DNA of 36,010 bases, taken from positions 1 through 36,010 of the IMG/VR virus record IMGVR_UViG_3300046028_002832. One strand, given 5' to 3'. Numbering within the stretch: the stretch's first letter is position 1; each line of letters begins with the position of its first letter. Below the pieces are notes generated by a model. That model did not search any database. It was given only the letters and a program-made list of their open reading frames with translations, and was not told where the DNA came from. The position numbers and the translations under genes are program-made. Origin of the DNA: a virus. Positions 8,222-31,498 of this stretch are shown piece by piece.

Positions 8222-9684
8222 GCGACAACAATCTTTTTTTCAATTCTGAGGAAATACGCGATCTCCCATTACGGACTGAATTTGTCACTGGTCCGGCTGG
8301 ACCGACAGGAAACCAAGGGGCAGCGGGAGTAGGCGTTACGATTGGCGGGATAACAGGGCAAGTTTTAGCCAAAAAATCAAACGCCAACTATGATACAGAA
8401 TGGATCAATTCGGTTAGCGTTGTAAGCTGGGGAACAATTACAGGCACGCTTTCAAATCAAACCGATTTGCAGGATGTTCTAAATGCGAAGGCACCATCAA
8501 CGGGGATTTCACCATCGGCAATATCAGGCACGGCAGTAATTACTACCGACCCGAGGCTATCAGATTCACGCTCTCCGAACGGATCAGCAACGGGTGATTT
8601 AGGCGGCACATATCCCGCTCCAAGCGTTGCAAAACTCCAAGGGTATTCTGTATCCGCAACGAGTCCATCAATCGGCCAGATTTTGCAATGGGGCGGATCG
8701 TCATGGTTGCCAGCGGCTATCCCGCAGGGAGGTTCTGGTGGCGGTGGGGTAAACTACTTTTTCAACTTTAACGAGGCGGCAGTTGCTCCCATCACGGGAT
8801 TGCCGACAAGTCCGCAATCGGCTGCAAGGCTCTCAAGGTTTGCAACAATAACGCAGTCGGCTATCACATCGGCGCACTTGTCGAAAGTTGCGTATGATTT
8901 AGTCGCTGGATTTGTAAGCGATCCTGCCGATCCAAATGTGACCCAAATTCCTGCTGGATTATGGGACTTCAATATTTGGGCAGACTCAAATGCGAATAGC
9001 TCAGACGAGTGTATCCTTAGATTGTTTGTCTACAAATACAACGGGACAACGACAACTTTATTATCGGAGTCGGATGACATTTATGTTTATGATCCCACGG
9101 TCATAAACCAATACTCAGCATCGGTTGTTTTCCCGTTTACAACAATCCTTGCGACCGACCGGATATACATTGAGCTTAGAGGCAAAGCCACGCAGAATAA
9201 CATTCACATTTCACTTCACTTCGGGAATGTTACGCCATCCCACGCGCACACGACATTTTCATCTGTAGCTGGAACGGGCGTTGTCAAAGTTGTAAATGGT
9301 GTTTTCCAAACACCAGCAAACTTGATTTTTGACGCTGATGTTGACGCAGCGGCAGCGATTGCACAAAGCAAAATTGCAAGCCTTACAAGTGACTTGGCAG
9401 GGAAAGCACCATCGACAGGGATTTCTCCGAGTGCCATTTCTGGAACAGCAGTAATTACTACAGACGCGAGGTTAAGCGATGCCAGATCGCCAACCTCTCA
9501 CGCCTCTTCTCATGCCGTTGGCGGGTCTGATCCCTTAACGCCTTTGGCAATCGCTGCAGTAGGTAGCAACCCAACTGGAATCACAGGAGCAGAAGCAGTA
9601 ACAAATATGGTATCTCTTACACAGACGGAATATAACAATATTCCAACGCCTGATACGAAAACTCTTTACATTATTACAGACTAA
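8218..9684 (+). CDS. Collagen-like tail fibre protein with internal duplication
   Basis: A 488-residue fibrous protein. Near the N-terminus lies a short collagen-like Gly-X-Y run (GPAGPTGNQGAAG), which would trimerise. A 29-residue block, APSTGISPSAISGTAVITTD plus (P/A)RLSD(S/A)RSP, occurs at residues 92-120 and again at 397-425. A Gly-rich hinge (GGSGGGG, about 175) precedes a central domain of about 200 residues that looks like a jelly-roll. DADVDAAAAIAQSKIASLTS and HASSHAVGGSDPLTP are typical of trimeric phage fibres; the HxxxH-GGSDP loop may bind metal. It probably helps bind the host. Neighbouring 9684 likely works with it. Placement before the tail tube genes is unusual. Confidence 0.78.
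   Translation: MSDNNLFFNSEEIRDLPLRTEFVTGPAGPTGNQGAAGVGVTIGGITGQVLAKKSNANYDTEWINSVSVVSWGTITGTLSNQTDLQDVLNAKAPSTGISPSAISGTAVITTDPRLSDSRSPNGSATGDLGGTYPAPSVAKLQGYSVSATSPSIGQILQWGGSSWLPAAIPQGGSGGGGVNYFFNFNEAAVAPITGLPTSPQSAARLSRFATITQSAITSAHLSKVAYDLVAGFVSDPADPNVTQIPAGLWDFNIWADSNANSSDECILRLFVYKYNGTTTTLLSESDDIYVYDPTVINQYSASVVFPFTTILATDRIYIELRGKATQNNIHISLHFGNVTPSHAHTTFSSVAGTGVVKVVNGVFQTPANLIFDADVDAAAAIAQSKIASLTSDLAGKAPSTGISPSAISGTAVITTDARLSDARSPTSHASSHAVGGSDPLTPLAIAAVGSNPTGITGAEAVTNMVSLTQTEYNNIPTPDTKTLYIITD
8491..8577 (+). repeat. Copy 1 of 87-bp coding repeat in the tail fibre
   Basis: It encodes 29 residues beginning APSTGISPSAISGTAVITTD. The second copy, at 9406-9492, differs at two amino acids and at scattered silent sites, so the duplication is old or under protein-level selection. 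Confidence 0.85.
9406..9492 (+). repeat. Copy 2 of 87-bp coding repeat in the tail fibre
   Basis: Matches 8491-8577 at the protein level except Pro to Ala and Ser to Ala, with many synonymous base changes. Both copies follow a similar helix-like lead-in (DLQDVLNAK and LTSDLAGK). Confidence 0.85.
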
Positions 9685-11030
9685 TGCCTACAACTACTGG
9701 GAAAATCTATCTTGGCACTACTCTTGTATCTGGCGTGACACCCGATTCTGGTTGGGTTCGACCAAGCGATTGGATTGCTATGCCAATAATTACTTCTTCA
9801 GAACAGAAAGCTGCCGCGCTTGTTCTTGTTGGAGACAATAACAGCAATTTTTTTGCTTTTCGTTGTTCCAAAGAATATACCGTTGATTGGGGTGACGGTA
9901 TCATTGAAAATATTGCAACTGGAGTTACAGCGCAGCATAATTATGTTTATAGCAGTCTCTCCGCATCAACAGAAATTGGGCCGATTGGTTCTAAAATGCG
10001 ACAGGCAATGATTGTCATAACCCCGCAAGCAGGAGTAGACCTTACATCTATCTCGTTTAATTTTAAGCACTCAGCACTTGGGATCACGTCATATACTACT
10101 CCAATTCTTGAAATTACCTTATCCGCTCCAAATTGCACAACATTGGCAATCGGTGGGACAATAGCAGGAACAAGATTGCTTCAACAATGCACTATTCTTT
10201 CGCATAATGCGACAAATTTAGAAAATTTATTTAATGTTTGCTCTTCGCTTCAAAGTGTTCCGTTATTTAATACCTCTGCGGTAACAAGTATAAATGGTAT
10301 GTTTAGTGGGTGTTCCTCACTTCAAAATGTTCCGTTGCTTAATACTTCGGCTGTAACAAACATGAATTTTATGTTCAATTTTTGCCCCTCACTTCAAAAC
10401 ATTCCGTTGTTTAATACTTCTGCTGTAACAAACATGATTAGCATGTTTACTGGGTGTTCCTCGCTTCAGGGCATTCCTTTATTAAATACTTCGGCGGTAA
10501 CAAACATGACCAGTATGTTTACTGGATGCACATCACTTCAGGGCATTCCATTATTAAATACTTCGGCGGTAACAAACATGTCCAGCATGTTTTCCAATTG
10601 CACATCACTTCAAAGTATGCCTTTATTAAATACTTCGGCGGTAACAAACATGACCAGTATATTTTCTGGATGCACATCACTTCAGAGCATTTCTTTATTT
10701 AATACTTCTTTAGCACAATCAATGGCCGTTATGTTTAACAATTGTAGATCGCTTCAGAGCATTCCAGCACTTGATTGCTCAAGCGCAACAAACATGAGTC
10801 TTTTTGTTTCAAGTGGCAGCTCACTTAAACGGGTTTTAGCAACAGGTATAAAGAGCAGTGTTTCATTTTCAAGTTCCACGCTTGGCGCAACCGAACTAAA
10901 CGAAATTTACACTAACCTTGCCGATTTAACTGCGCTACCAACACAAACCATAACCGTATCAAACAACTACGGAACAGCAACGGACAACCGCGCAATCGCA
11001 ACAGCAAAAAATTGGACCGTTGCAGGATAA
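9684..11030 (+). CDS. BspA-type leucine-rich-repeat protein, probable receptor-binding tail protein
   Basis: A 448-residue protein. The N-terminal half (1-170) includes a PKD-like strand, YTVDWGDGIIENIATG. Residues 188-379 are eight 24-residue units with consensus SLQ.(I/V)PL.NTSAVTNM.SMF..C, the signature of BspA/DUF285 surface LRR proteins that bind host or matrix molecules. The last two units are degenerate, and a capping region follows (LGATELNEIYTNLADLTAL). The start overlaps the fibre stop (TAATG). No signal peptide is seen, which fits a virion protein rather than a secreted one. A role as adhesin or receptor-binding subunit is inferred from LRR chemistry and from adjacency to the fibre. 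Confidence 0.8.
   Translation: MPTTTGKIYLGTTLVSGVTPDSGWVRPSDWIAMPIITSSEQKAAALVLVGDNNSNFFAFRCSKEYTVDWGDGIIENIATGVTAQHNYVYSSLSASTEIGPIGSKMRQAMIVITPQAGVDLTSISFNFKHSALGITSYTTPILEITLSAPNCTTLAIGGTIAGTRLLQQCTILSHNATNLENLFNVCSSLQSVPLFNTSAVTSINGMFSGCSSLQNVPLLNTSAVTNMNFMFNFCPSLQNIPLFNTSAVTNMISMFTGCSSLQGIPLLNTSAVTNMTSMFTGCTSLQGIPLLNTSAVTNMSSMFSNCTSLQSMPLLNTSAVTNMTSIFSGCTSLQSISLFNTSLAQSMAVMFNNCRSLQSIPALDCSSATNMSLFVSSGSSLKRVLATGIKSSVSFSSSTLGATELNEIYTNLADLTALPTQTITVSNNYGTATDNRAIATAKNWTVAG
10245..10820 (+). repeat. Eight tandem 72-bp units encoding BspA-type LRRs
   Basis: Units begin at each TC(G/A)CTTCA codon set. Central units are near-identical in DNA (for example AATACTTCGGCGGTAACAAA recurs), while the first and last have drifted. 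High DNA identity makes copy-number change by slippage or recombination likely, and makes short-read collapse possible. Confidence 0.88.
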
Positions 11031-13433: not shown

Positions 13434-14232
13434 GCAAATCATGAAAAGGTATGCTGACGCTAAAAATGTCTCCATTCCTGATGCCGTTATGCTGAATGCT
13501 CGCTTGTTATGCGTGGAGCTTGCGCGCAGGACGCAACCATTCGGCATGAGCGATAGCTCAAAGAAAGCAGGGGAGAAGGCAATCACAAGGGATTTGTTGG
13601 GGAAAAGCGGCGGAAGTAAAGCAAGAGCAGGATTATTTTCTCCAATCTCAGCCGTAATGGACGATGCCGTTTTCTACAAAAAAACAACCAATGTAAGGTT
13701 GTTTGTTTCTAAAGACGGCACGGTTTACGGAACGGACCGTAGTCATTTCTTGCCAGACGCAACGGAAAGCACTCTGCGAGCATTCCACAAAAAGAATTTT
13801 GTAAATGGTAGGATGTCATCTGCTGGTGGAAGAACTAAAGACATCGGGCGATGGAAGTTTGTTGATCGGTTATTTGTAGATGCTGCAACCTTGGACAATT
13901 ATCTGGAAGCAACGCTTAAAAAAGTTGGTATTGCCAAGTCCGGTTGGGCGAGTTGCGCCTCGCAACTTAAAAAGATTAACAAAGGAAAACTCACGGCAAG
14001 CATTCCAAAATGGGTTCTTCGGCATTTAGAGGACTTCAGAAGCGGAGAAGTTAGAGACAATACCGCAAATAAAAACAATCCCACGGTCTTGCTTACGAAC
14101 AAAGTTCCGTGGGCATCGGATGTAATTGATGTTATGGAGCAAGGCAAAGCGCAATCTATTGTTGCTCAAAAAATGAAAAAGCAACTCAGCAAAATCTTAA
14201 AAGGCGATCAATCAAAATTAGTTGAGGCATAA
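13399..14232 (+). CDS. Putative minor tail protein of unknown function
   Basis: A 277-residue basic protein. The N-terminus is helical (MAKFKFQDLRFEQIMKRYAD, ...NARLLCVELARRTQPFGMS). The middle has KTTNVRLFVSKDGTVYGTD. The C-terminal half includes KVGIAKSGWASCASQLKKI, IPKWVLRHL and NPTVLLTNKVPWASDVIDVM, a pattern I associate with conserved phage tail-completion-type proteins located near the tape measure. I chose ATG 13399 over 13351 to limit overlap with the chaperone extension. Function is unassigned; completion, connector or tail-associated roles all fit. Confidence 0.6.
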   Translation: MAKFKFQDLRFEQIMKRYADAKNVSIPDAVMLNARLLCVELARRTQPFGMSDSSKKAGEKAITRDLLGKSGGSKARAGLFSPISAVMDDAVFYKKTTNVRLFVSKDGTVYGTDRSHFLPDATESTLRAFHKKNFVNGRMSSAGGRTKDIGRWKFVDRLFVDAATLDNYLEATLKKVGIAKSGWASCASQLKKINKGKLTASIPKWVLRHLEDFRSGEVRDNTANKNNPTVLLTNKVPWASDVIDVMEQGKAQSIVAQKMKKQLSKILKGDQSKLVEA

Positions 14233-23503: not shown

Positions 23504-24019
23504 ATGCCTACATACAAAGCAAGCGAACCCAAAAAAGCAGAAATCTACTTCGTCAAACCAGACGTTTACGAGGTTGAAATCAGGAAAGCTATTGAGAAGG
23601 TTTCAGTGCGCAGCGGAAACACGATGATCAAACTCACGTGCACCATCATAATGCCTGACGGTGGGGACGGCCCCGAGGTTTGGGAACACCTGACGTTCAC
23701 GGAAAAGGCCGCATGGAAGATCGATCAGGTTCTAACAGCGGTTGAAATAGCGGTTACTGCTGGGGAGGACATTGATGTTCAACCAGAACATTTGATCGGT
23801 AAAAAAGGCATTTGCCTTATTGGAGAAGAAGCAGGATCAGAAAATCCAGACCATCGGTTTAACAAAATCGAGCGTTGGTTTTTCGGGGACGAAAAGAAGG
23901 CGTGGCTATCTGGGAGTAAAAGCAATCCTACGGTTGCAGCATCCAAATCAATCCCAAGCAAACCAATAAAAAGCGTCCCTATTCAGACGGATGTGGAAGG
24001 TGACGAGATTCCATTCTAA
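23504..24019 (+). CDS. SSB-like ssDNA-binding protein (DUF669-type)
   Basis: A 171-residue protein. It has beta strands consistent with an OB-like core (VYEVEIRKAIEKVSVRSGNT, MIKLTCTIIMPDGGDGPEVW) and the helix AAWKIDQVLTAVEIAV. After a Ser/Lys/Pro-rich flexible linker (about 145-163) it ends DVEGDEIPF, closely like the acidic ...DDDIPF tip of bacterial SSB that docks partner proteins. The Sak4-like ATPase, nuclease and DnaB nearby are natural partners. Such DUF669-type proteins stand in for SSB in phages. The leader AAAATAGAAAAAAATAAA directly before ATG is a looser version of the GAAATAGAAAA signal. Confidence 0.75.
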   Translation: MPTYKASEPKKAEIYFVKPDVYEVEIRKAIEKVSVRSGNTMIKLTCTIIMPDGGDGPEVWEHLTFTEKAAWKIDQVLTAVEIAVTAGEDIDVQPEHLIGKKGICLIGEEAGSENPDHRFNKIERWFFGDEKKAWLSGSKSNPTVAASKSIPSKPIKSVPIQTDVEGDEIPF

Positions 24020-24058
24020 GTGATAACTAACGTCCTCTCAATCCGACTTGTGATCTGC

Positions 24059-24226
24059 ATGAATGAATGCCCAATTGGTTTGCGACTGCAAAAGGAAGAG
24101 CCGCTACCAGTTTACCAGCATACTTACGATGACAGCGAGGATGGGAGGGCGTTAGCCTTACACCACCTTGAGAAAATAAGAAGCTATGTCGAAAGAAACA
24201 AAGAGGTAGGAAATAAAAAGAAATGA
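24059..24226 (+). CDS. Small protein of unknown function
   Basis: A 55-residue protein, MNECPIGLRLQKEEPLPVYQ, then DSEDGRALALHHLEKIRSYV and a Lys-rich end. No family recognised. I chose ATG 24059; an in-frame GTG start at 24020 lies directly after the SSB-like stop and is possible. The end overlaps the next ATG by 4 nt. Confidence 0.5.
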   Translation: MNECPIGLRLQKEEPLPVYQHTYDDSEDGRALALHHLEKIRSYVERNKEVGNKKK

Positions 24227-24417
24227 AAGATCCGAAATGGAAGTGGAAGGGATATGTCATGCGTTCGTGGCCGAGTCCCGATGATGAGATTCCGAGGTTT
24301 GATTATGAGGCATTGATTGATGATCAATGGGTGGAGGTGTTGAGTGGGGCATTTGATTTTGATCCCGTTCAAGCGCAAATCGCGTTAGATGCATATCTGC
24401 TGAAAACAAAAAAATGA
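24223..24417 (+). CDS. Small acidic protein of unknown function
   Basis: A 64-residue protein with five tryptophans (PKWKWKGYVMRSWPSPDDEI, QWVEV). The leader GAAATAAAAAGAA before ATGAAA resembles the A-rich initiation pattern. It overlaps the next gene by 4 nt, so it belongs to the initiator transcript. No family recognised. Confidence 0.5.
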   Translation: MKDPKWKWKGYVMRSWPSPDDEIPRFDYEALIDDQWVEVLSGAFDFDPVQAQIALDAYLLKTKK

Positions 24418-24776
24418 TCCTCTCACCAGACTTCTGCGATCATTACAAGACTAAAATCTTGATCAGGCTCGCTGGTCACTCCGGAGTTTTTAGCCTTCTC
24501 AAGCTGTGGGGGCAATGTCAGTTTCGACGCTCTGAGCGTCTTGAGAAGCCTCCGGAAATAATAGCGGCCATAGCTGACTGGAATGGCGATCCAAAGGAGT
24601 TTGAGAAGGCACTAATCGAAAGCGGGTATGCGAGGCGTGACGGGAAGACGCTGATCATGCACGATTGGGAGAGCCAGAACAAGAAAATCATCAGTAATTA
24701 CTCAAACGGGCAGAAGGGCGGCAGACCAAAAGCCAATGAAAAAGAAGGCAAAAAACCTTTCAATTTCAAGCTGTGA
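24414..24776 (+). CDS. Replisome-organizer-like DNA-binding protein (possible initiator)
   Basis: A 120-residue protein. YKTKILIRLAGHSGVFSLLK, then LWGQCQFRRSE, PPEIIAAIADWNGDPKEFEK and ALIESGYARRDGKTLIMHDW resemble the winged-helix N-terminal domain of phage replisome organizers that bind origin repeats and help load DnaB. The usual partner domain after the linker (SNGQKGGRPKANEKEGKK) is missing: it stops after FNFKL, just before the 11-bp repeat array. After the stop, the same frame still reads a PKRNPTVTQTKPIHNPQVTH-like stretch, so a C-terminal tail may have been lost. It directly precedes the repeats, and the phage DnaB gene follows. Confidence 0.65.
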   Translation: MILSPDFCDHYKTKILIRLAGHSGVFSLLKLWGQCQFRRSERLEKPPEIIAAIADWNGDPKEFEKALIESGYARRDGKTLIMHDWESQNKKIISNYSNGQKGGRPKANEKEGKKPFNFKL

Positions 24777-24780
24777 AAAT

Positions 24781-24857
24781 AACCCAAACGAAACCCAACG
24801 GTAACCCAAACGAAACCCATCCATAACCCACAGGTAACCCACAGCGAACCACACGGG
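24781..24857 (+). repeat. Array of seven 11-bp iterons (AACCCAnnnnn)
   Basis: The units begin at 24781, 24792, 24803, 24814, 24825, 24836 and 24847. Six start AACCCA and the last starts AACCAC. Spacing is exactly 11 bp, about one helical turn, so all cores face the same side of the DNA. Because 11 is not a multiple of 3, coding pressure does not explain the periodicity. Phased iterons beside an initiator-like gene are typical of replication origins. Confidence 0.82.
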
Positions 24858-24956
24858 GATGAGATAGATAGATAGACTATCTATCTTCTATCGAAGATAG
24901 ATTAGCTTCGCTCTCCCGCTTGAGGCGGGAGCGAAGCAAACCAGAGAGAGAAAACA
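24858..24956 (+). other. Hairpin-rich probable origin segment between initiator-like gene and DnaB
   Basis: Three inverted repeats crowd this gap. AGATAGATAG/CTATCTATCT (24866-24886) has a single-base centre. ATCTATCTTC/GAAGATAGAT (24879-24902) is perfect with loop TATC; it shares bases with the first, so only one can form at a time. A GC-rich stem GCTTCGCT..CCCGC/GCGGGAGCGAAGC (24905-24937, 2-nt bulge) follows. Together with the iterons this is the best candidate replication origin. The last stem might also act as a terminator or attenuator before DnaB, though no T-tract follows. Confidence 0.6.
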
Positions 24957-26222
24957 ATGGCAAAACTAAGGAGAGAAAATAAACCAGAAAATAGACCAAG
25001 GAATATGTCGAGCGTTCCAATGAACGCATCGGCAGAAAAGGCGGCGATTTCAATTATCCTCCAGAACCACGCCGCACTCGACTTGGCAAAATGGGATGCG
25101 GACTTGTTCTTCGATCCAACGAACAAGGAATTGTTGTCGATCGCAAAGGAGAACCATCATCTGGGCAATGCTGCCGATCCGTTCAAGCTGCAATCCCTAC
25201 TTGAGGAAAAGGGAACCTTTGAAGCCGTGGGGGGGGCGTATGGGTTCACGGAAATCTTCACGGCATACCCAGCACCGGATGCGGTGATGGCGTTGGAGTT
25301 CCGAAAAGACTTGATGCGAGCGAGAAAATACAGAAAGGCATTGGCAAAGCTTTCCGAGAGCAATCAGGACATTCGGGAGATGCGAGCTGACTTGGTGGGG
25401 ATTGGTCAAAGTTTGTCTTCCGAGGATGAAGAGTCAGAACCCAAGACATCGCTTGCGCAGCAATGCTTGGCGTTAGTGACAGAATTGGAGCGAGAGACGC
25501 CACCAGAGCGATTGAGGACAGGGATTGATGGGTTGGATGATTTGCTTAACGGGGGATTTGAGCGTGGGACGGTCGCTGTATTCGCTTCTGAGACTTCGGG
25601 GGGTAAATCCATTGCTTTGCTGCAAACTGCGCTCTGCGGGGCTTGTGACGCCAAGAAAGGGGTCATCTTTAGCCTGGAGATGAGTGCAACGCAGGTTCTG
25701 GCGCGGATGGTTGGAAACATATCAGGAGTTAAGTGTGTTTCAGCGTTTGAAAATCCGAACAAAGCACAGATGGCCGGAATTAGCGCGGGAATTACCAAGC
25801 TTTCCAAACTGCCAATCATCATCGAGGACAAAATCAGCAGCATCGATGAGATAGAGGCATTTTGCAGGAGGGAGGCAAAAAACGGACTCGATTGGGTCGT
25901 TGTCGATTACATTCAACTTTGCTCGGCATCAGCGGAGAGCCAATCAGAAACCAGAGAGCAACAGGTGAGCGAAGTCGTGAGGAAGCTGAAGCTTCTGGCG
26001 TTGAGATACAATCTTTGGATTCTTACAGCCTCACAGGTAAACGACAAGGGAGAACTGCGAGAAAGTAGGGCGATCGGCCACCATCCAGATTACGTCCTTG
26101 TCATCGACCATTCAGATCATCCAGACTCGTTAATTCGGATCGTGAAGAATCGGAATGGTGTGCGATACGTAAATGCCGATGTTCAAATGCAGGGCGAAAT
26201 CTCTAAATTCATTGACCGATGA
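24957..26222 (+). CDS. dnaB: DnaB-like replicative helicase
   Basis: A 421-residue hexameric 5'-3' helicase that unwinds the phage fork. The N-terminal primase-interaction domain (about 23-120: SAEKAAISIILQN, FFDPTNKEL) is followed by a linker and the RecA-like motor. It has Walker A ASETSGGKS (210-218), FSLEMSATQVLARM, Walker B VVVDYIQL (313-320), the TASQVN sensor and the late GELRESRAIGHHPDYVLVI and KNRNGVRY motifs. Usual DnaB is about 450-470 residues, so it is slightly short. GAGAGAGAAAACA precedes the ATG at 24957; ATG 25005 is an alternative. It lies right after the origin-like region. No primase gene is seen, so a host primase is likely used. Confidence 0.9.
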   Translation: MAKLRRENKPENRPRNMSSVPMNASAEKAAISIILQNHAALDLAKWDADLFFDPTNKELLSIAKENHHLGNAADPFKLQSLLEEKGTFEAVGGAYGFTEIFTAYPAPDAVMALEFRKDLMRARKYRKALAKLSESNQDIREMRADLVGIGQSLSSEDEESEPKTSLAQQCLALVTELERETPPERLRTGIDGLDDLLNGGFERGTVAVFASETSGGKSIALLQTALCGACDAKKGVIFSLEMSATQVLARMVGNISGVKCVSAFENPNKAQMAGISAGITKLSKLPIIIEDKISSIDEIEAFCRREAKNGLDWVVVDYIQLCSASAESQSETREQQVSEVVRKLKLLALRYNLWILTASQVNDKGELRESRAIGHHPDYVLVIDHSDHPDSLIRIVKNRNGVRYVNADVQMQGEISKFIDR

Positions 26223-26476
26223 AGTGCGTTCTTTGCAACAAGGCGACAAGCGTAATAGACACACGCAACAAGCTGCAAGAGACGATGAGGCGCAGGGAGT
26301 GCGTATCGTGCAATGTTAGGTTCAACACGATAGAAAAAGTATTCGGAAAAGTTTCGAGCGACCGGACAAAAAAGGTTGTGATGAAGGATGCGTTCATCCG
26401 CTCTGAAGATGATTGGATCGAGCGAGTTCCAAGATCAGATTATGCTGATCGAATTTTCGGCAAAATTGGGCGTTGA
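26219..26476 (+). CDS. NrdR-like zinc-ribbon protein without ATP-cone
   Basis: An 85-residue protein. Cys3/Cys6 and Cys28/Cys31 form a zinc ribbon (CVLC...CVSC), and MRRRECVSCNVRFNTIEKV is close to the RRREC..C..RFTTYE signature of the ribonucleotide-reductase repressor NrdR. Full NrdR is about 150 residues with an ATP-cone; here only the ribbon and a charged tail (FIRSEDDWIERVPRSDYADR) remain. No ribonucleotide-reductase gene is in the window. It may bind NrdR boxes in the host or serve as a general DNA-binding module. It overlaps DnaB by 4 nt. Confidence 0.7.
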   Translation: MKCVLCNKATSVIDTRNKLQETMRRRECVSCNVRFNTIEKVFGKVSSDRTKKVVMKDAFIRSEDDWIERVPRSDYADRIFGKIGR

Positions 26477-26508
26477 CAACCAAGAATATTTCGATACGAT
26501 CAAAACAG

Positions 26509-27543: not shown

Positions 27544-27591
27544 ATGGGTATGAACAATGTCAAAATTCTCAGTTATACAAAAAACGCATGA
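27544..27591 (+). CDS. Possible 15-residue leader peptide before ParB
   Basis: ATG at 27544 opens MGMNNVKILSYTKNA and ends with TGA at 27589-27591, overlapping the ParB ATG at 27588 as ATGA. Its only support is this overlap, the same coupling used throughout the genome, and the A-rich leader before it. It may couple translation to ParB or be chance. Confidence 0.3.
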   Translation: MGMNNVKILSYTKNA

Positions 27592-28343
27592 AAATCGAGA
27601 AAATCCTTACTGAAAAGCTGATTCCTTACGCACGGAACGCAAAAAAGCACGACGAGATTCAAATTTCAAAAATTGCTGGATCGATTAGAGAATTTGGTTT
27701 TAACAATCCAGTTTTGATCGACTGCGACAACGGGATCATTGCTGGGCATGGTAGGGTGATGGCCGCGCAGAAGCTTGAACTTGCCGAGGTTCCTTGCATC
27801 AGGCTCGATCACTTAACCGACGTTCAGAGGAAAGCCTACATTCTCGCCGACAACAGACTGGCGGAGATCGGTGGCGGATGGGATGAAGAGATTCTTAGAA
27901 ATGAGTTGAAAGGATTGCTGGGGGAAGGAATCGACATTTCGGGCTTGGGGTGGGATGATGGATGGGAGGATGATTTAGAGTCGAAGGGGGATGCGTATAC
28001 GAGGAAAGTTGAGTCGCCAAAATATGAACCGAAGGGAACTAAACCATCGATCCCTGAATTGTTTGATGATTCAAAAACAAAAAAGATAATTGAAAGCATA
28101 AATCTTTCAAAGCTTTCAAAGGATGAGAAGGATTTTTTGATTACGGCTGCGCAAAGGCATACGGTTTTCAACTTTGAAAACATTGCGGAGTATTACGCAC
28201 ATTCCTCGAAGGAGGTTCAAGAATTGATGGAGGAATCTGTTTTGGTAATTATCGACTTCAAGAAGGCGATCGAGCTTGGGTTTGTTTCTTTGACTGAAAA
28301 AATAAATGAGATGTATAACATAGATAATCCAGATGAAGAATAA
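27588..28343 (+). CDS. ParB/Srx-fold protein with TAGT-associated C-terminal domain
   Basis: A 251-residue protein. Residues 1-105 are a ParB N-terminal domain: LIPYARNAKKHDEIQISKIA, FGFNNPVLIDCDNGIIAGHG then R (GHGR at 53-56) and YILADNRLAEIGGGWD. This module binds nucleotides or DNA and in ParB acts as a CTPase. Residues about 140-251 form a second domain (AAQRHTVFNFENIAEYYAHS, ELMEESVLVIIDFKKAIELG), which I know mostly next to TAGT-type glycosyltransferase genes such as the one following here. ParB proper has an HTH DNA-binding domain, which is missing. It probably serves DNA modification or packaging rather than segregation. The stop overlaps the glycosyltransferase start by 11 nt. Confidence 0.8.
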   Translation: MKIEKILTEKLIPYARNAKKHDEIQISKIAGSIREFGFNNPVLIDCDNGIIAGHGRVMAAQKLELAEVPCIRLDHLTDVQRKAYILADNRLAEIGGGWDEEILRNELKGLLGEGIDISGLGWDDGWEDDLESKGDAYTRKVESPKYEPKGTKPSIPELFDDSKTKKIIESINLSKLSKDEKDFLITAAQRHTVFNFENIAEYYAHSSKEVQELMEESVLVIIDFKKAIELGFVSLTEKINEMYNIDNPDEE

Positions 28344-29187: not shown

Positions 29188-29768
29188 AAAAGGAAAGCGA
29201 GAAACCAGTTGATTTAGAGCAGAAGATAAAAGAGGCCGAGTTTAAGAATATCCTGCAAAAATTAAAGAGCGGGAAAACTCTAACCGCCAGAGAGTCGAAG
29301 ATCGCTTCAGAATTTGCATCGGAAAAAAAGACAGGGAAACTTACTCAACAGAAAATCGCAAAGGCATGGGGGATGACGCAACCCAACGTCCACAAGATGG
29401 TCAAGGCAGGAATGCCGATGACTTCGATGGCCGAGGCTGAAGCGTGGCGCAAGAAATTCCTTGAAACCAATGGGAGGGGAAAGGATGCGCCGAAAGGACT
29501 GAACGAGGCGAGGCTACGCAAAACATTGTTGGAATGCGAACGGATTGAATATGCGCTTGCAGTTGATCGGGGTGAATACGTGAAGAACCTGGAGGTGAGA
29601 GAAGCAGGGATTAGATTTGGGGCAATCCTATCGGCAAAGCTTTCCGCGCTTGTAAACGATGCCAGCGGAGCTTTAGCAGGATTGGGGGAAGTGGAATTGA
29701 GGAAGAAGTTGAATGATCGAGTGCAGGGCATTTTGGGAGAAATGCAGGGGGAACTTTTGAAAATATGA
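29184..29768 (+). CDS. Terminase small subunit (Nu1-like)
   Basis: A 194-residue protein that would recognise the packaging site on phage DNA. After a charged N-terminal helix it has a helix-turn-helix (LTQQKIAKAWGMTQPNVHKM), as in lambda gpNu1-type small terminases. It then has a coiled-coil region (NEARLRKTLLECERIEYALA) and a C-terminal helix (ELRKKLNDRVQGILGEMQGE). It directly precedes the large subunit with a 4-nt overlap, the classic arrangement. With a GpA-type large subunit, cos packaging is likely, but I could not identify a cos site. Confidence 0.85.
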   Translation: MKKESEKPVDLEQKIKEAEFKNILQKLKSGKTLTARESKIASEFASEKKTGKLTQQKIAKAWGMTQPNVHKMVKAGMPMTSMAEAEAWRKKFLETNGRGKDAPKGLNEARLRKTLLECERIEYALAVDRGEYVKNLEVREAGIRFGAILSAKLSALVNDASGALAGLGEVELRKKLNDRVQGILGEMQGELLKI

Positions 29769-31498
29769 TCAATCCGTTATTGGAAGGCATAGCGGCCGGC
29801 ATCAAACTGGCGTATTCTGGGACGATTCTTGATTGGGCAAGTGAGAATGTGAATTTTCCTAATTCTGATCGTGCGAGCAGATTTGATCCAAGCGTTGCGC
29901 CTTGGCTGAACGATCCCTTGCTTGCGGCAAGTGATGACGAGACAACGCAAATCTTTCTTCGCGCCCCTACTGGTGGAGGAAAGACGACAATGATGGAAAC
30001 GATTGCGTGTTTTATTGTCGCTCAGAAGTCTGGACCGACATTGTTTGTGGGTCAAACTGACGATATGGTGAAAGATTGGACTGAAAGCCGATTGATTCCT
30101 ATTTTCAACGAGTGCCAGCCTGTCAGGGAACTATTCCCTCAAGACAGGCACGCAATGCGCAAAACTACGATCCTGTTCCCGCACATGGTTCTTTTCGCAG
30201 GAGGGGCGAACATGACAAACCTTCAAGAGAAGTCCATGCGTTACTGCATTGGGGACGAGGTTTGGCGGTGGAAGGGAGGAATGATCAAGGAACTCAAGGC
30301 ACGGCATCACGACAGATGGAATCGGAAGACAATTCTTGTCTCGCAGGGATGGGATGCAGGGCATGAAGCAGACGTCGAATGGGAGAGTGGGACAAGGGAA
30401 GCTTGGGGATGGGAATGTTCCCAATGTGGGAACTGGCAGAGATACTTATTTGAGGCTATAAAATACGTTGCTGACAGGGATGAAAGGAACAATGTTCTAT
30501 GGGACAACGTGCAAGACTCTGTGCGGATGGTTTGCGAGCATTGCAAGCACGAATATCAGGACACGGCAGCAGTCCGTAGGGATTTATCAACGAGATCCAG
30601 CTATCGATCATTAAACCCGCATCCGATTCGTGGTCATAAATCTTACGAGTATCCGGCTTATGCCGTCTGGTGGATTCCTTGGTTTACCATCGTTAAGGAA
30701 TGGATTGAGGCGAACGAGGCAAAGAACAGCGGGAACATTGAACCGCTAAAACAATTCGTGCAGAAACGGAAGGCGCAAACTTGGCAGAATGAAATCACGA
30801 GCGACTTGCCAGAAATATCGGTGGGCGACTTTTCCAAAACAGAATTTTTGGAAGGGCAGAAAATAGATGGGGAGCATCGGAGGTTTCTGTGCGTGGATAA
30901 ACAGCGGGATCACTTTTGGGCAATCGTCCGGGCGTTTAGGGTTGACGGGTCTTCGATGCTTCTGCACGAATCGCGTCCTTTGACTTGGGAAACCATCGAT
31001 GCAATCCAATCGCAGTTCGAAATCCAACCGAGGTGCGTGGTTATTGATGCTGGGTATGATACGCCGCTGGTTTACGAACAATGCGCACGAAGAAATTGGA
31101 CCGCCTCCCACGGATCAGGGCAAGATGGATTTTATCACATGGAGGGGAGCAGAAGGACGCGTCGATTTGTTTCTAAAATTGAAGGGGCGCAAGCCGGATC
31201 GGACGGGCTAAAATGCGCATATTTTTTCTACAGCAACGAAAAGGTGAAGGACAAGTTGGCATCGCTTCGACAGCCTGATGCAACATTGAAATGGGAAGTC
31301 CCGAGGGATGTTTCCGACAATTACCGCAAGCAAATGTTGAGCGAGATGAAAAAGGATATTGTGAACGCAAAGACGAAACAGGTTGAGCAAAGATGGGTGC
31401 GCATTGGTGGAAGGCCAAACCATCTTTGGGACTGCGAATGTATCGCAATCGCATCGGCAATGTTGGCAGGAGTTTTGCCGATAGGCGCGGAGGCGTAG
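29765..31498 (+). CDS. Terminase large subunit (lambda GpA-type)
   Basis: A 577-residue packaging motor and nuclease. Walker A is APTGGGKT (67-74) and the Walker B-like IGDEVWRW has the acidic pair at 164-165. A zinc ribbon (Cys218/221 and Cys257/260, CSQC..CEHC) lies between the ATPase and nuclease domains, as in GpA. The RNase H-like nuclease has Asp378 in LCVDKQRDHFW, Asp428 in CVVIDAGYDT and Asp556 in NHLWDCECIAIA. Length is a little below lambda gpA (641). It overlaps TerS by 4 nt and is followed by an AT-rich accessory block rather than by the head genes, so packaging and head operons are separated by about 5 kb. Confidence 0.92.
   Translation: MINPLLEGIAAGIKLAYSGTILDWASENVNFPNSDRASRFDPSVAPWLNDPLLAASDDETTQIFLRAPTGGGKTTMMETIACFIVAQKSGPTLFVGQTDDMVKDWTESRLIPIFNECQPVRELFPQDRHAMRKTTILFPHMVLFAGGANMTNLQEKSMRYCIGDEVWRWKGGMIKELKARHHDRWNRKTILVSQGWDAGHEADVEWESGTREAWGWECSQCGNWQRYLFEAIKYVADRDERNNVLWDNVQDSVRMVCEHCKHEYQDTAAVRRDLSTRSSYRSLNPHPIRGHKSYEYPAYAVWWIPWFTIVKEWIEANEAKNSGNIEPLKQFVQKRKAQTWQNEITSDLPEISVGDFSKTEFLEGQKIDGEHRRFLCVDKQRDHFWAIVRAFRVDGSSMLLHESRPLTWETIDAIQSQFEIQPRCVVIDAGYDTPLVYEQCARRNWTASHGSGQDGFYHMEGSRRTRRFVSKIEGAQAGSDGLKCAYFFYSNEKVKDKLASLRQPDATLKWEVPRDVSDNYRKQMLSEMKKDIVNAKTKQVEQRWVRIGGRPNHLWDCECIAIASAMLAGVLPIGAEA

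Follow-up and report, generated by a model that had tools for sequence, protein, structure and literature searches.

A phased 11-bp repeat array next to a short initiator gene, very probably the initiator-binding part of a phage replication origin

The 36,010-bp virus record IMGVR_UViG_3300046028_002832, analysed here over its whole length (the window), carries an array of AACC-based repeats, or iterons, spaced by exactly 11 bp and set between a short initiator gene (the 24414 gene) and a gene for a DnaB-family replicative helicase. We conclude that this array is very probably the initiator-binding part of the phage replication origin. Judged from its sequence context, it would best fit an unusual form of the lambda/P22-like iteron origin, one in which the initiator is truncated and the repeats lie beyond its gene.

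The array consists of six exact iterons, found by pattern search on the plus strand at 24781..24846, each made of AACCCA and a further 5 bp, with cores starting at 24781, 24792, 24803, 24814, 24825 and 24836, every step being exactly 11 bp. A seventh, degenerate unit, AACCACACGGG, follows on the same strand at 24847..24857 with the core AACCAC; the arrays of relatives likewise end in AACCA(T/A). The first-pass annotation had counted seven AACCCA iterons, and seven AACC units do fill 24781–24857, but only six have the full core. The three-unit phased pattern has no second occurrence in the 36-kb window and arose in 0 of 100 dinucleotide shuffles of it; the array is not a chance occurrence. It starts 4 bp past the TGA of the 24414 open reading frame (ORF) and ends 99 bp upstream of the dnaB ATG at 24957, in keeping with the placement between an initiator-like gene and DnaB that had been described at the outset. 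Read in the 24414 frame, past two stop codons, it would give PKRNPTVTQTKPIHNPQVTHSEPHGD / NPTVTQTKPIHNPQVTH; because it lies beyond the stops of this ORF, the array is untranslated in the window and is non-coding there.

Several lines of evidence bear on its function. First, the array is kept in close relatives of the initiator. We retrieved 37 relatives of the 24414 protein by protein sequence rather than by array, and the region was readable in 35 sequences, including the window. All 35 have phased AACC units after the stop codon, numbering 4–8 and always 11 bp apart, with the spacing unchanged; the array begins 1–9 bp past the initiator stop, at 2 bp in 27 of them. The next ORF encodes a DnaB-like N-terminal sequence in every one of the 25 relatives whose sequence there is readable. 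Loss of the array from close relatives with the same genes, which the first-pass annotation had named as an outcome that would speak against it, was thus not seen. Across the distinct arrays, comprising 181 units of non-coding DNA, the A-A-C-C positions hold about 2 bits each and positions 8–10 hold little information; lying outside the gene and free of coding constraint, these arrays show directly which bases matter. Even where the cores have drifted, to AACCAA in L126 and AACCTA in L156, the phase is kept. In relatives, the initiator is followed in order by the array, the AT-rich inverted repeat, a GC hairpin whose stems covary, and dnaB.

Second, the adjoining gene (24414..24776, plus strand) encodes a 120-amino-acid initiator protein with a predicted winged helix and a basic tail, as judged from PHROG 9474, AlphaFold2 and Foldseek. 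Residues 47–102 match PHROG 9474, 'replication initiation protein' (E = 9.1e-9), a partial match covering profile positions 55–111 of 288. In the AlphaFold2 model, a confident one (mean predicted local distance difference test score 85.5), predicted helices at 11–20, 22–38, 47–53, 60–70 and 90–100 and wing strands at 73–76/79–82 suggest a winged-helix DNA-binding domain, and the end of helix 90–100 runs into NGQKGGRPK, followed by a disordered tail. This linker motif (24705..24731, plus strand), delimited by column conservation and by its association with the AACCCA core, lies among columns of which only G99, G102 and P105 are nearly invariant. Foldseek matches to the model include winged-helix proteins (the MCM8 winged-helix domain over 64 columns at 2.1 Å, MarR, IclR and CRP), none with a significant E-value; a sequence profile search of the Protein Data Bank returned artificial alphaRep proteins only, which we set aside. 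The protein has no match to PF07120 (DUF1376) at E-values of 0.1 or 0.01, tblastn of it against annotated phages gave no match, and neither did megablast of window positions 14000–36010 against the same phages.

Third, the 11-bp period appears without any selection for arrays. We gathered initiators from annotated phages, viral contigs and genomes through homology of their proteins, which left 55 non-redundant genes. Beyond the DNA-binding domain, self-match in these genes is highest at lag 11 (0.339; 0.289 at lag 10 and 0.314 at lag 12); within the first 80 codons the lag-11 value is 0.277. At least three phased 6-mers occur at 11 bp in 24 of these genes, at 10 bp in 1, at 12 bp in 7 and at 13 bp in none. 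They also occur at 7 bp in 28 genes and at 14 bp in 22, and are rare or absent at most other periods. In annotated phages, BA3 and Mcat30 among them (L429, L432, L433, L440 and L444), the 7-bp repeats, AACCAAT/AACCATT, come immediately after the 11-bp ones, where they form a candidate unwinding region.

Fourth, arrays of the same kind accompany initiator genes in other phages. In IMG/VR, four AACCCA cores at 11 bp are present in at least 120 stretches; here and for the other scans, our figures refer to arrays among the matches listed. Of the 120, 83 lie inside an ORF, usually 100–125 codons from its start, and 31 directly after one. A phage initiator gene contains or just precedes 108 of them, a descriptive figure, since the N-terminal-domain profile used to recognize these genes was built from the same array set. 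PHROGs names for the array-bearing ORFs include primosomal, O-like and replication initiation proteins and DnaD-like loaders; 34 of the 78 scanned match PF07120. Several types of sequence follow the array, which seems to be located at a domain joint of the initiators. Of 18 phage contigs with pattern matches, 17 have a single array. We found no description of these 11-bp phased arrays in the literature searched, which was mostly open-access.

These positions bear on whether the array is instead an operator, through which the initiator would repress its own operon or dnaB while the origin lies elsewhere. Its place between two early genes would fit, and cooperative repression suits phased repeats; however, the 83 mid-ORF arrays, nearly always within an initiator gene, are odd for an operator and usual for lambda-type origins (PMC7466680). 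The single array per contig and the presence of an AT-rich repeat and a hairpin after the array also argue against an operator, which we consider unlikely.

Translation of the arrays raises a different question. Three 11-bp units make 33 bp, exactly 11 codons, so the period can sit inside a gene, and in most relatives the array is indeed translated as an 11-residue repeat; the initial view that codons cannot explain the spacing therefore fails in general. The DNA repeat might then be a mere by-product of a low-complexity peptide linker, the 11-residue repeat NPxxTQxKPxx. For the window this is refuted by the position of the array beyond the stop codon, both there and in its relatives. Elsewhere, the coding AACCCA array of L450 has four phased copies, a number reached in 0 of 2000 synonymous shuffles, and the 11-bp period also occurs with other cores that code for other peptides. 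Overall, we judge the peptide explanation extremely unlikely.

Besides 11 bp, the main period, others occur. In IMG/VR, 12-bp arrays occur in 104 stretches and 10-bp arrays in 34, with 28 of 109 12-bp arrays and 20 of 39 10-bp arrays being initiator-linked; examples of AACCCA in phage initiator genes include L266, L267 and L269 at 10 bp and L162 and L168 at 12 bp. In genome contigs, unrelated repeats dominate and 13 of the 122 listed arrays are initiator-linked. We noted there two further kinds of 11-bp repeat. Intergenic TTTTAGGATAACCCATAGATAACCCAAGGATAACCCA arrays occur in mostly Bacteroidales/Bacteroidota contigs (L305, L326, L328, L335, L369, L379, L391 and L404), away from initiators and with several contigs belonging to one genome, and dispersed CAAACCCAATTCAAACCCAATACAAACCC repeats occur in Phycisphaerae/Planctomycetota genomes (L303, L313, L321, L346, L355, L356, L366 and L371).

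Fifth, the core of the repeat covaries with the protein sequence just before it. Unexpectedly, the 11-bp period also holds for initiators with other cores, which encode different peptides; phage zth2-2 has AACCCA, Acinetobacter phage phiAC-1 has AATGCG and Bordetella phage IFTN2 has TTCAAC. Of 110 array-bearing ORFs, 92 have the motif GGR[PKR] at most 35 amino acids upstream of the array. Within the 55-gene set, part of which had been viewed when the linker motifs were picked, GGRP linkers go with AACC[CG] in 12/18 and with TTCAAC in 0, and AGKAS linkers go with TTCAAC in 12/19 and with AACC in one. Two fresh scans, for GTTCAAC and AATGC arrays at 11 bp, then put this rule to the test. Initiator-linked AACCCA arrays had the NGxKGGRPK-type (GGRP) linker in 93 cases and AGKAS in none; GTTCAAC arrays had the AGKASAxxR-type (AGKAS) linker in 58 and GGRP in none; and AATGC arrays had the SAxxRW-type (RW) linker in 28, with neither GGRP nor AGKAS. 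Without near-copies, the leading-linker counts are 44, 38 and 19, respectively, and the Fisher test value changes from 3e-43 to 3e-24; as the sequences are related, both values overstate the evidence. The arrays lie on the gene strand with one exception. In these sequence comparisons, the core can be predicted from the linker that follows the winged helix.

In a tree of the DUF1376 domain with the linker excluded, which has low support at many forks, the three linker classes are interleaved, with 19 changes on the best tree, and its well-supported (starred) branches force 4–6 changes per linker class. L032, which is alone among the AACCCA rows of the tree in having an RW linker, bears the AATGC pattern too. 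N-domains with no BLAST match to one another, the window type included, likewise carry the GGRPK linker ahead of AACCCA; so strict an association over widely diverged domains argues for joint selection. We hold the evidence to be evenly balanced on a broader account, in which these initiators would share a geometry of one winged-helix subunit per 11-bp turn and carry an exchangeable specificity tail, with NGxKGGRPK reading AACCCA, AGKASAxxR reading GTTCAAC and SAxxRW reading AATGC. Tail and repeat would be exchanged as a unit, which would create new origin specificities and new C-terminal helicase partners; in the lineage of the window, the array would have left the gene, and the minimal DNA-binding initiator that remained would work directly with DnaB.

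Downstream of the array come two paired elements and the helicase gene. An AT-rich tract with GATA inverted repeats (24858..24904, strand not assigned) is a candidate unwinding element on the basis of composition and arm covariation: the AT content is 69% across 24858–24905 (48 bp) versus 55% genome-wide, and the inverted-repeat arms lie within 24862–24886 and 24879–24902. Across relatives, the inner pairs of the GATA hairpin are AT/AT, CT/AG, AC/GT, TC/GA and GC/GC, which are compensating changes. The GC-rich hairpin GCTTCGCTCTCCCGCTTGAGGCGGGAGCGAAGC (24905..24937, strand not assigned), seen in single-sequence folds, has several quite different stem sequences among relatives, with the pairing kept; a terminator scan did not call it a terminator. 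RNAalifold on the whole post-stop alignment gave little consensus (11 pairs, −3.5 kcal/mol), since the two hairpins are out of register in the alignment; both stems are present in most relatives by single-sequence folds, which, compared by eye, are the evidence for stem covariation. The sole Rfam match, to gyrA RNA (RF01740) over the two hairpins at 24873–24953 scored 27.2 bits against a gathering score of 45, and we read it as a chance product of the two stems. Promoter-like matches in 24000–26500 were not above shuffled expectation, a result that speaks neither for nor against the operator reading. The gene that follows, dnaB (24957..26222, plus strand), encodes a 421-amino-acid helicase identified by Pfam and PHROG matches (DnaB_C, E = 4.7e-33; DnaB N-terminal domain, E = 1.3e-7; PHROG 19, E = 6e-56). 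Directly after dnaB, an 85-amino-acid ORF (26219–26476) has a match to the NrdR-type zinc ribbon (PF22811, E = 3.6e-10) and to no other part of NrdR.

This arrangement suggests how a functional origin might work. Several copies of the winged-helix 24414 protein would bind side by side on a single face of the DNA, each occupying one 11-bp turn, with the basic NGxKGGRPK tail beyond the last helix helping to read the AACCCA core. Crowding of protein in the resulting multimer would strain the adjoining AT-rich GATA repeat until it opens, and DnaB from the neighbouring gene would be loaded there. For the GC hairpin, the proposed site of action is single-stranded DNA or the dnaB transcript.

The rest of the window encodes a lambda-type portal and a GpA-type terminase, whose large subunit gene lies at 29765–31498. 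A packaging site (pac or cos) is conceivable in a phage genome with such a gene, but the array is about 5 kb away from it and tracks initiator genes in unrelated phages, leaving this option with a probability close to nil. Elsewhere, a 72/144-bp tandem repeat at 10239–10797, within the ORF at 9684–11030, would encode repeats of about 24 residues, which we take to resemble BspA/DUF285 surface repeats.

A partition centromere bound by an adaptor protein deserves mention, as parC of plasmid R1 is likewise an array of helically phased 11-bp direct repeats. The window has a weak ParB_N match at 27588–28343 (E = 1.8e-4, below the cut-off), but the array adjoins genes for an initiator and DnaB, the predicted fold of the 24414 protein is a winged helix rather than a ribbon-helix-helix, and across families the arrays associate with initiators. 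We regard a partition role as very unlikely.

Several points weigh against this reading of the array as an origin. GC skew is positive on both sides of the array, with no turn there, so the skew check proposed earlier gives no signal. The initiator has just 120 amino acids and is without the C-terminal half found in other such initiators. The array may serve as an operator, whether in place of an origin or in addition to one. Linker and array adjoin in the DNA and may travel together by recombination of a short cassette. Finally, contrasts on well-supported branches of the tree are few: 4, 3 and 2 concordant (9), 0 discordant and 1 uninformative.

Origins are unknown for most environmental phages. 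A linker-predicted core together with a phased array would allow origins to be annotated from sequence in DUF1376/YdaU-type and PHROG 9474 phages, and would explain the odd 11-residue repeat in these initiators; a linker swap would be a simple route to how initiators read the origin.

Among known systems, phage P22 offers close parallels. Its initiator gene 18 is directly followed by the DnaB-like gene 12, as in the window; its annotated origin lies near codon 117 of gene 18, and arrays elsewhere lie near codons 105–125; an AT-rich stretch and a C5/G5 palindrome mark the downstream end of that origin; and the C-terminal sequence of gp18 resembles, by eye, those of several array-bearing initiators. 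The P22 repeats are not 11-bp AACCCA, however, with self-match best near 24 bp, and its origin is within the gene, whereas the window array follows a truncated one. Lambda differs in its iterons, which are longer at about 18–20 bp, and in its separate loader P, in place of which the window has DnaB. In lambdoid phages, the origin comprises iterons and an AT-rich tract in the middle of gene O, and the length of the O protein in lambda and Stx phages changes with iteron number (PMC7466680). The window shares with the lambda/P22 type the repeats beside the gene of an initiator with a DNA-binding domain, the AT-rich tract and the helicase gene directly downstream. We call it a variant because its array is outside the gene, not between two domains within it, and because the initiator has no C-terminal domain to contact a loader or helicase, its end after the winged helix being disordered in the model. 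The R1 parC site works with ParR and ParM, neither of which is seen beside the window array. Many DUF1376 (PF07120)/YdaU-type initiators carry an AACCCA array after an NGxKGGRPK linker; the window protein, lacking the C-terminal half and any PF07120 match at the gathering score, belongs instead to PHROG 9474. With at least four cores at exactly 11 bp, a single array and an initiator bearing the matching linker, the window has the features of the phased-array class.
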